Assembly (NCBI RefSeq): GCF_030161095.1
Contig: NZ_BSPP01000011.1
Location: 248,001-312,000 of the forward strand
DNA from: Cypionkella aquatica
Lineage (GTDB): Bacteria; Pseudomonadota; Alphaproteobacteria; Rhodobacterales; Rhodobacteraceae
DNA length: 64,000 nucleotides
Reading direction: 5' to 3'
In this document: one piece after another, positions 6,425 to 49,146 of the stretch
How the letters are laid out: every line of letters begins with the position of its first letter
Numbering within the stretch: position 1 is the first letter of the stretch
Position numbers and translations under genes: made by a program
Notes under the pieces: model-generated
Databases searched by the model: none
Told to the model about the DNA's origin: nothing
Seen by the model: only the letters and a program-made list of their open reading frames with translations

Positions 6425-6549
6425 CTGGGAACTCCTTGGGCGGTTGTTTGTGTGATGCTGCCAAAGTGAGCACGACACTATACGAATAGCGACATACGCC
6501 AACAGAAAGCCGACTTAAAGCGACGGCTGGCACGAAAATGCTTGGATAT

Positions 6550-6564
6550 GTTCTCTATATGTTC
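6550..6564 (+). promoter_or_regulatory. LexA (SOS) box
   Basis: GTTCTCTATATGTTC is an exact match to GTTC-N7-GTTC, the direct-repeat SOS box of alphaproteobacteria. It ends 12 nt before the ATG of the radical-SAM gene, so bound LexA would block transcription or its promoter. Confidence 0.7.
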
Positions 6565-6576
6565 TAGTTTTGCGCG

Positions 6577-7662
6577 ATGGAGAAACCGATCAGCACAATC
6601 ATGCCGGGGGTGCGGCCTCGCGGGCGCGGTGCCTTGGGCAATGCGGTGGGGCGGTTTGAAGGCAACGCGCGCGAGGCGTTCGAGGATGGCTGGCAGCCGC
6701 ACGAGGACCGGGTGTTGCGCACCGAAGTTCGTCTGGAAGTGCCGCGTTCTGCAATCAGCTACAGCACGTCGCCCGACCTGCCGTTTGACCGCTCGATCAA
6801 CCCGTATCGCGGCTGCGAACATGGCTGCATCTATTGCTTTGCCCGCCCCAGCCATGCGTTTCTCAATATGTCGCCGGGGTTGGATTTTGAAACCAAACTG
6901 ATCGCGCGACCTGGCATCGGCGCGGTGCTGGAGCGCGAGTTGCGGGCGAAATCCTACAAGGTGGCGGTGATGGCCCTCGGCACCAACACCGACCCCTACC
7001 AACCGATAGAGGCCGAATATGGCGTGATGCGTGAGGTGCTGGACGTATTGCGCGCCTTCAACCATCCGGTGGCGATCACCACCAAAGGCACGTTGATCGA
7101 GCGTGACATTGATCTTCTGGCCGATATGGCTGCGCAGGGCCTGTGTCGCGTCGGCATTTCGGTGACAACTCTGGACGCCGATCTGTCGCGCAAGATGGAA
7201 CCGCGCGCCGCCAGCCCCAAGCGACGTTTGCAGGTGATCCGGCGGCTGGCTGATGCGGGTATTCCGGTGCGGGCAATGATCTCGCCGATGATCCCCGGCC
7301 TGACCGACCACGAATTAGAGCCGATCATGGCCGCAGCCCGCGACGCCGGGGCAACGGCGGCCAGCTACATCGCTTTGCGGCTGCCACGCGAGGTGTCGCA
7401 GCTGTTTCAGGATTGGCTGGCCGAACATGTGCCGGGGCAGGCGGCCAAGGTGATGGGCCGGGTGCGGCAGCTGCATGGGGGTATGGACTACGATCCCGCT
7501 TTCGGAAAACGCATGCGCGGCGACGGGCCTTGGGCCGATCTGATGGCGCGGCGGTTTCGCGTGGCAGTGGATCGGTTGGGGCTGGCGGTGAAATTGCCGC
7601 CGATGCGCTGTGATCTGTTTGCGCCACCTGCGCGGGCGGGCGATCAGATGACGTTGTTCTGA
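6577..7662 (+). CDS. PA0069-family radical SAM protein, LexA box upstream
   Basis: Radical S-adenosylmethionine enzyme of 361 residues, related to the spore photoproduct lyase-like group often called the PA0069 family. The [4Fe-4S] cluster motif is RGCEHGCIYCF with Cys80, Cys84 and Cys87 (CxxxCxxC), and the preceding SINPYRG is typical of this family. The C-terminal part has GLTDHELEPI and ends in DQMTLF. The substrate is not established. The exact LexA box 12 nt upstream suggests induction by DNA damage and therefore a role in repair. It stands alone on its strand, between the two halves of the split methionine synthase, which are on the opposite strand. Confidence 0.88.
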   Translation: MEKPISTIMPGVRPRGRGALGNAVGRFEGNAREAFEDGWQPHEDRVLRTEVRLEVPRSAISYSTSPDLPFDRSINPYRGCEHGCIYCFARPSHAFLNMSPGLDFETKLIARPGIGAVLERELRAKSYKVAVMALGTNTDPYQPIEAEYGVMREVLDVLRAFNHPVAITTKGTLIERDIDLLADMAAQGLCRVGISVTTLDADLSRKMEPRAASPKRRLQVIRRLADAGIPVRAMISPMIPGLTDHELEPIMAAARDAGATAASYIALRLPREVSQLFQDWLAEHVPGQAAKVMGRVRQLHGGMDYDPAFGKRMRGDGPWADLMARRFRVAVDRLGLAVKLPPMRCDLFAPPARAGDQMTLF

Positions 7663-47760: not shown

Positions 47761-49146
47761 ATGAACAAAATCACCAATCATATGCCGACGGCTGAACTGC
47801 AGGCGCTGGATGCGGCTCACCATATGCACCCGTTCACTGCTAATACTGCATTGGGCAGCAAGGGCGCGCGGATCATGACCCAAGGCAAGGGCGTCTGGCT
47901 GACCGATTCCGAGGGCAACAAGATCATTGATGGGATGGCAGGGCTGTGGTGCGTCAATATCGGCTATGGCCGCACCGAATTGGGCGATGTCGCCAAGCGG
48001 CAGATGGACGAGTTGGCCTATTACAACACGTTTTTCCAAACCAGCCATGTGCCCGCGATCGCTTTGGCCGCCAAGATCGCCGAGTTGGCGCCGGAAGGCA
48101 TGAACCATGTGTTCTTTGCGGGTTCAGGCTCGGAAGCCAACGACACCAATATCCGTCTGGTGCGGCGCTATTGGGATGCGAAGGGCCAGCCGGAAAAGCG
48201 CATCATCATCGCGCGGACAAATGGCTATCATGGCTCGACCATCGGCGGCGGGTCTTTGGGCGGCATGTCGGGCATCCATGCACATGGCGGCAAGATCGCC
48301 GGTGTGGTGCATATTGGCGAGCCGAACTATTGGGCGCAGGGCGGCGATATGACGCCCGAGGCGTTCGGGCTGGCGCGGGCGCAAGAGTTGGAGGCCATGA
48401 TCCTCAACCTCGGCGTTGAGAATGTCGCGGCGTTCATCGGCGAGCCGGTGCAGGGGGCGGGCGGGGTGATTGTGCCGCCAAGCAGCTACTGGCCCGAGAT
48501 TCAGCGTATCGTTGATAAATACGGGATTCTGCTGATCGCGGATGAGGTGATCACCGGGTTTGGTCGGACCGGGAATTGGTTCGGCTCGCAAAGCTTCGGG
48601 ATCAAGCCGCATATCATGACCATCGCAAAAGGCTTGTCGTCGGGGTATCAGCCGATTGGCGGATCTATCGTCTGTGATGAAGTTGCGGCGGTGATTGGCT
48701 CGGATGAGTTCAATCACGGCTACACCTATTCCGGGCATCCGGTGGCGGCTGCGGTGGCGCTGGAGAACCTGCGGATCATGCAGGAAGAAAACATCGTCGC
48801 GCATGTCCGCGATGTGGCGCATCCTTATCTGGCCAAGAAATGGGCTGGGTTGATGGAGCATCCGATGGTGGGGGATGCGCAGCTGGTGGGGTTGATGGGA
48901 TCCATCGCTTTGACGCCCAACAAGGCGGCGCGGGCGAAGTTTTCTTCGGATGTGGGGACGGTGGGCTATCGCTGTCGCGAGCGGTGTTTTGCCAACAATC
49001 TGATCATGCGGCATGTTGGGGATCGGATGATTATTTCGCCTCCGCTGGTGATCACGCTGGAAGAAATCGACGTTCTGATCGAGCGGGCTTGGGTGTCGAT
49101 TGATGAATGTTATGTCGGCCTGAAGGGCGATGGCTTGTTCAAATAA
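47761..49146 (+). CDS. Class III aminotransferase (omega-transaminase, SpuC-like)
   Basis: Pyridoxal-phosphate enzyme of 461 residues that moves amino groups from omega-amines, most likely putrescine or other diamines, to pyruvate. The cofactor lysine is Lys290 in TIAKGLSSGYQP, and FFAGSGSEANDTNIRLVRRYW, GYHGSTIGGGSLGG and LIADEVITGFGRTG are typical. Beta-alanine and taurine enzymes are close relatives, so the donor is inferred. It follows a GntR regulator gene and has palindromic sites upstream. Confidence 0.87.
   Translation: MNKITNHMPTAELQALDAAHHMHPFTANTALGSKGARIMTQGKGVWLTDSEGNKIIDGMAGLWCVNIGYGRTELGDVAKRQMDELAYYNTFFQTSHVPAIALAAKIAELAPEGMNHVFFAGSGSEANDTNIRLVRRYWDAKGQPEKRIIIARTNGYHGSTIGGGSLGGMSGIHAHGGKIAGVVHIGEPNYWAQGGDMTPEAFGLARAQELEAMILNLGVENVAAFIGEPVQGAGGVIVPPSSYWPEIQRIVDKYGILLIADEVITGFGRTGNWFGSQSFGIKPHIMTIAKGLSSGYQPIGGSIVCDEVAAVIGSDEFNHGYTYSGHPVAAAVALENLRIMQEENIVAHVRDVAHPYLAKKWAGLMEHPMVGDAQLVGLMGSIALTPNKAARAKFSSDVGTVGYRCRERCFANNLIMRHVGDRMIISPPLVITLEEIDVLIERAWVSIDECYVGLKGDGLFK

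Follow-up and report, generated by a model that had tools for sequence, protein, structure and literature searches.

Among described systems, spore photoproduct lyase (SPL or SplB; TIGR04070; PDB 4FHC-4FHG, 4K9R, 4RH0) is the closest solved fold to the protein discussed here, a radical SAM protein of the PA0069 family encoded in a stretch of 64,000 nucleotides of Cypionkella aquatica DNA (hereafter the window), and the CX3CX2C cluster motif is common to both. That SplB-like radical SAM genes are under LexA control is already published and not new: it was predicted in 2012 for alpha- and beta-Proteobacteria, where the SOS gene was called splB and SOS-controlled photoreactivation was supposed (PMC3323433), further predictions concern Bacteroidetes (PMC8565304) as well as Gram-positives and Balneolaeota (PMC7739468), and the LexA regulon of Streptomyces venezuelae, based on ChIP-seq and RNA-seq, lists a radical SAM gene (PMC9380542). 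The initial annotation of our locus had described SOS-induced repair as a function not yet attributed to this family, a statement which in view of these four papers has to be withdrawn; in the passages concerned, however, the genes are neither identified as members of NF033668, the NCBIfam entry of the PA0069 family, nor is a clamp motif mentioned. As in our case, these 'splB' or COG1533 genes combine SOS control with group-specific motifs, and we infer that they very probably are the same or sister genes. Where a function is given in those passages, it is photoproduct repair, whereas the PA0069 family lacks the Cys residue on which SPL relies as hydrogen donor.

The bacterial consensus for binding the beta sliding clamp is QL(S/D)LF, and SOS polymerases conform to it, E. 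coli Pol II with its C-terminal QLGLF and UmuC with QLNLF (PMC3716654, PMC9690074, in their passages on this motif). The gene described here resembles them in being an SOS-type gene with the clamp motif at the extreme C-terminus of its product, but it encodes a radical SAM enzyme, and its clamp binding is a predicted one. In Archaea, a SplB-like protein is found beside NreB and the link to the sliding clamp is provided by the PCNA-binding PIP motif of the Nre proteins (PMC4929162), that is, by a neighbour protein; the one haloarchaeal homologue examined by us has no clamp-like tail. SplB-like proteins have also been linked with ImuB-C domains (PMC3765255), and both the ImuB-C and the NreB links, as far as these passages describe them, fit a function at the clamp. 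The Rv2578c family (NF038135), an actinobacterial sister, is homologous to the PA0069 family and has a clamp-like tail in all four examples from plasmid records, but it is curated separately and the window protein stays under its cut-off (238.6 bits versus 430). TIGR03916 (rSAM_link_UDG), a putative DNA modification/repair radical SAM family, resembles ours in having a LexA box at 13 and a Q[LM]xL tail at all of 14 loci from the bacterial family of the window, yet it is a different family, for which no NCBIfam cross-match to NF033668 is listed; its gene in the genome of the window (contig C7, 395092-396354) has a LexA box and ends with QLALF. This family we take to be identical with COG4277. 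A link of COG4277 to a uracil-DNA glycosylase has been described (PMC8565304, in the passage on this group). Searching the literature for PA0069 together with LexA, or for the family name, yielded no publication, and two publications on PA0069, judged by their passages on it, have subjects other than SOS control. Cirz and co-workers reportedly listed PA0069 among the LexA genes of P. aeruginosa in 2006.

The gene in the window (6577..7662, forward strand) encodes 361 amino acids and belongs to NF033668 with 482.7 bits against a cut-off of 360; the match to Pfam Radical_SAM (PF04055) reaches 78.4 bits, and the best identity to named relatives among the matches listed is 70%, in Rhodobacteraceae. 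Upstream of it, the LexA (SOS) box GTTCTCTATATGTTC (6550-6564, forward strand) fits GTTC-N7-GTTC exactly and is separated from the ATG at 6577 by 12 nt (6565-6576), just as had been noted initially. The frequency of this pattern is not above chance: the window contains two matches versus 1.78 +/- 1.45 in shuffles, the second one (at 48111) being located inside an open frame of 478 codons, and the whole genome (4.04 Mb, 99.91% complete) contains 65 sites versus 222 of the reversed pattern, which makes the box rarer than its control. The count alone was therefore not used as evidence, and it is the conservation before orthologues that places the box of the window above chance. Its position is that of a regulatory site in the alphaproteobacterial LexA regulon, at a probable promoter: TTGGAT (6542..6547, forward strand) and TAGTTT (6565..6570, forward strand) are the probable -35 and -10 elements, the 17-bp spacer between them consists of positions 6548-6549 and the box, and 6 nt separate TAGTTT from the ATG. 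In 73 same-family upstream regions aligned on the box, T, T and G are found at positions -8 to -6 in 93, 72 and 76%, the box is directly followed by T in 78% and by A in 93%, T is present at +20 in 73%, and the first in-frame ATG lies 12 nt 3' of the box in 51 of the 73. A consensus promoter scanner reported no sigma-70 promoter at its threshold at the window locus. From this layout, transcription probably starts close to the first base of the ATG, rendering the mRNA leaderless or nearly so, and since the box fills the spacer between -35 and -10, bound LexA would cover the core promoter.

The NF033668 cut-off is exceeded in 71 of the 100 family genomes and in 111 of the 299 phylum genomes searched, four genomes, including that of the window, being common to both sets. 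The upstream DNA was read for 79 same-family loci (the window included), 60 other loci of the same class and 39 other loci of the same phylum. Within -150 to +20 of the HMM match start, and in either direction, the exact GTTC-N7-GTTC occurs at 74/79, 28/60 and 0/39 of these loci, respectively, versus 0/79, 2/60 and 0/39 for the reversed pattern, and further upstream, between -400 and -230, it occurs at 4/78, 3/60 and 0/38. The count of 28/60 could be taken to mean that relatives in the same class mostly are box-less, an idea which was rejected, as in most of the remaining loci a longer coding N-terminus shifts the box further upstream: in forward direction and within -400 to +20 the box is found at 73/79 same-family and 56/60 other same-class loci, the controls CTTG-N7-CTTG and CAAG-N7-CAAG giving 1/79 and 5/60, and 0/79 and 0/60, respectively. 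Out of the five same-family exceptions in the narrower interval, two (L145, L081) carry versions with one mismatch, and three (L076, L125, L230) show no box there by the relaxed pattern. With 74/79 same-family loci and 56/60 in other Alphaproteobacteria, the check suggested in the initial annotation, alignment of the upstream regions of orthologues, thus came out in favour of a conserved box, as is to be expected of a member of the alphaproteobacterial LexA regulon.

Outside the class, a different motif takes its place. The E. coli-type LexA box CTGT-N8-ACAG precedes 28 of the 39 relatives, and the rotated control GTCT-N8-AGAC none of them. Among the 11 loci without it, L165 carries TTAGTAATAATACTAA, which presumably is the Xanthomonas-type LexA motif, L189 by eye has the appearance of a decayed box, and in the rest no LexA motif is visible, so that 10 of the 39 have none of the LexA motifs looked for. 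A LexA box was likewise looked for and not found at the PA0069-family gene on a Legionella adelaidensis plasmid (L353, 2980-4068), which is divergent from polX and whose product has the tail GQLDLF. The four actinobacterial Rv2578c-type homologues sampled, all on plasmid records, are preceded by the actinobacterial LexA motif GAAC-N4-GTTC, exact in two (GAACATGTGTTC in L354 and TCGAACTGCTGTTC in L365) and imperfect in the two others (TCGAACATACATTC in L355 and TCGAACGAGATGTTCGA in L366); the Streptomyces LexA consensus is given as tCGAAC-N4-GNNCGa (PMC9380542, in the passage on this motif). A LexA site which is kept while the LexA motif itself changes between host groups argues for selection for SOS control, the same argument having been made earlier for splB with two motifs (PMC3323433, in the passage on this gene). 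Judged by the upstream sequences, SOS control of the PA0069-family gene is very likely.

The genome of the window also provides the regulatory background. Two of its 65 box sites are situated in the window, the other 63 were checked for covering open frames, and at 28 of the 65, picked as AT-rich or intergenic, the downstream genes were inspected. Exact boxes precede lexA, recA, uvrA, a gene for a PcrA/UvrD-type helicase and the TIGR03916 gene; UvrA and the helicase score below whole-protein cut-offs because the fetched stretch cuts both genes. An exact box is also present before a Y-family polymerase-like gene adjoining DnaE2 (DnaE2 at C8:149267), which by reading is ImuB. The genome thus has a LexA regulon of the usual alphaproteobacterial kind, and the PA0069-family gene looks like one of its members. 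Some other sites deserve mention in their own right. A photolyase/cryptochrome-like gene has two overlapping GTTC-N7-GTTC matches across its start codon (C10:471190-471215), a double match which may be a coincidence of coding (MNVLIWF) or may reflect true SOS control. A textbook box, GTTCTCTTTATGTTC (C4:196384-196398), precedes a gene whose 97-aa product matches no NCBIfam entry, and exact boxes are located before three DNA methyltransferase genes (L026, L030 and L031), one Dam-like, one Dcm-like and one, by eye, for an adenine methylase, which perhaps are prophage genes.

The protein itself ends with QMTLF (residues 357-361; 7645..7659, forward strand), a predicted beta sliding clamp binding motif which corresponds to the usually C-terminal pentapeptide of the QL[S/D]LF type. 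A 40-member alignment shows a variable linker followed by a conserved end, and in a separate alignment Q357 is invariant in 55 of 55 rows. Among 161 full-length proteins, which were no random draw (the 60 best-scoring family/phylum loci, 20 of the 39 outside the class, the best 80 of at least 596, and the window protein), QxxL[FL] is found within the last 25 residues of 156 and an exact Q[LM]xL[FL] ending in 127, the commonest ending being QLSLF (38/161); four of the five exceptions have QLTFDFD, QLGLDI, QLALNL and QLSFF, and the fifth, by inference, ends with QLEMF. For the shuffle control a tighter version of the motif was used, Qxx[LMI]F close to the C-terminus: 109 of the 161 have it, whereas 500 shuffle runs gave 0.84 on average and never more than 5. 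Of the 276 frames of at least 100 codons in the window, the PA0069-family gene is the only one ending in the motif. Genome-wide, a degenerate pattern of Q-[ILMF]-x-[LF]-F followed by TAA or TGA gives two hits, a count weak by itself since the backwards control gives three; what is not weak is that both hits are in frame at the ends of LexA-box radical SAM genes, namely the PA0069-family gene and, at C7:396337, the TIGR03916 gene.

A clamp-like tail is absent from five distant homologues (Bacteroides, Paenibacillus, Haloarcula, Runella, Nostoc), and the actinobacterial Rv2578c-type tails read QLTLL, EQLRLL, GQEPLF and LQESLF. The SplB-like Runella homologue without the tail is encoded on a plasmid (L372, 1084-2898), immediately followed by a UvrD-helicase gene and preceded by HipA genes. 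It should also be noted that pentapeptides are short and that other partners may be possible. A role on DNA is supported independently of the box by the conserved C-terminal motif, as judged from its sequence. Among the matches listed, no publication describes a clamp motif for radical SAM proteins of this kind, and as far as our searches reach, the conserved clamp tail, common with TIGR03916, is the new element.

With respect to the catalytic part, CEHGCIYC (6814..6837, forward strand; C80, C84 and C87) provides the CX3CX2C ligands of the [4Fe-4S] cluster characteristic of the PA0069 family; it does not vary among the 40 aligned members, and there is no further cysteine among the invariant columns. 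The predicted model has a mean pLDDT of 84.7 and a pTM of 0.84, the N-terminal stretch and the tail being less certain, and the low pLDDT of the last residues is consistent with a flexible tail. Among the solved structures compared with this model, those of SPL take the six best places (Z 20.1-20.7; for the best one, Z 20.7 with an rmsd of 3.3 over 279 residues), followed by NifB (Z 14.9) and the PFL-activating enzyme (Z 14.8), and Foldseek agrees on SPL (E 2.2e-09). By sequence, the best of the solved structures is SkfB (E 9e-05), SPL not being found in this search; the SPL family TIGR03886 is matched with 16.2 bits, far below its cut-off of 437.55, and TIGR04070 is not listed at E 0.01. The distant relationship to spore photoproduct lyase assumed at the outset is therefore confirmed by this weak match and by the fold.

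The residue in question is T136 (6982..6984, forward strand). In a MAFFT alignment with SPL-like proteins (L362-L364), the cluster cysteines coincide and the Cys of the SPL-like motif FEASCYTDP, which we take to be the SPL hydrogen donor Cys140/141, aligns with T136, a column occupied by T, A, I, S, V or G and by no Cys in 40 of 40 members; this mapping of the N-terminal half rests on MAFFT, as hhalign with the three SPL-like proteins aligned residues 161-281 only. Titles of SPL entries in the PDB name C140 as mutated residue, and the reference L362 has 278.4 bits to TIGR04070, under the cut-off of 400. With the hydrogen-donor Cys missing, reversal of the spore photoproduct by the SPL route is improbable; the protein resembles SPL in its fold but probably not in its reaction, and an SPL mechanism is, on this alignment, doubtful.

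How, then, should the locus be read? The protein could in effect be a spore photoproduct lyase that uses the SPL mechanism to reverse a thymine dimer made by UV, as the six best folds, well above the rest, the retained CX3CX2C motif and the name splB given to the SOS gene (PMC3323433, in the passage on it) would suggest; given the substitution at the position of T136, the scores under the SPL-family cut-offs, and the fact that three genomes (G127, G247 and G263) hold an SPL-like gene without box and without tail besides their PA0069-family gene, we regard this as unlikely. In agreement with the latter, neither LexA box nor clamp tail is present at seven SPL or SPL-family loci examined. Alternatively, an SOS-induced radical enzyme might perform no direct repair and have a protein or a nucleotide at the clamp as its target, for example to adjust the mutasome or delay replication. 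The clamp tail and SOS control would suit such a regulator equally well, and DnaE2 above cut-off is found in 92 of the 110 genomes that carry the gene versus 21 of the 188 that do not (298 genomes of the phylum, that of the window left out, phylogeny not corrected). Yet 18 of the 110 have the gene and no DnaE2 above cut-off, and SPL, whose fold comes closest, repairs DNA and ranks clearly ahead of radical SAM enzymes that modify peptides or proteins, such as SuiB, SkfB and the PFL-activating enzyme, which leaves such a modifier rather improbable. A gene unrelated to DNA damage, its box and tail being chance matches, would accord with the chance frequency of the box pattern in the window and its rarity in the genome relative to the reversed control, but is hardly credible in view of box conservation, replacement of the LexA motif and a tail in 156/161 proteins, all far beyond the controls.

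The reading which we consider likely is an SOS-controlled, clamp-docking DNA repair enzyme. The initial proposal of an SOS-induced radical enzyme repairing DNA damage is thereby strengthened with regard to its regulation and its place on DNA, by the conserved box and the clamp motif; SPL chemistry is not supported, the Cys being absent in 40/40. In such a scheme, LexA on its box in the -35/-10 spacer would keep the gene off until RecA triggers LexA cleavage, giving rise to a short-leader or leaderless mRNA. Sequence and predicted fold suggest a partial TIM barrel like that of SPL with a radical SAM [4Fe-4S] cluster; its flexible tail would deliver the enzyme to beta clamps at stalled forks and gaps, the same clamps at which SOS polymerases dock, and the 5'-deoxyadenosyl radical might then reverse or convert a base lesion directly. 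Going further, and tentatively, we suggest a class of SOS-induced clamp-docking radical SAM enzymes (PA0069, Rv2578c and TIGR03916) which may act directly on a lesion that blocks replication, reversing it or converting it where it stands. They would thereby compete with the ImuB-DnaE2 mutasome or assist it, in an error-free manner and not by photoreactivation.

The SplB-like SOS enzyme has so far been read as a photoproduct lyase, against which assumed reaction the missing Cys argues, and no report of its substrate was found in the literature; the clamp motif in turn suggests that the enzyme acts at the clamp, on forks and gaps, and the same tail is found in two different LexA-controlled radical SAM families. 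If this is true, a radical SAM enzyme would join the polymerases among the clients of the clamp. The gene is dispensable, as 29 of the 100 genomes of the family have no NF033668 match. Homologues in phage records cover at most about half of the protein, and in one genome (G100:C65:19693-20503) pieces of NF033668 with shifted frames and TGA stops represent a decayed copy.
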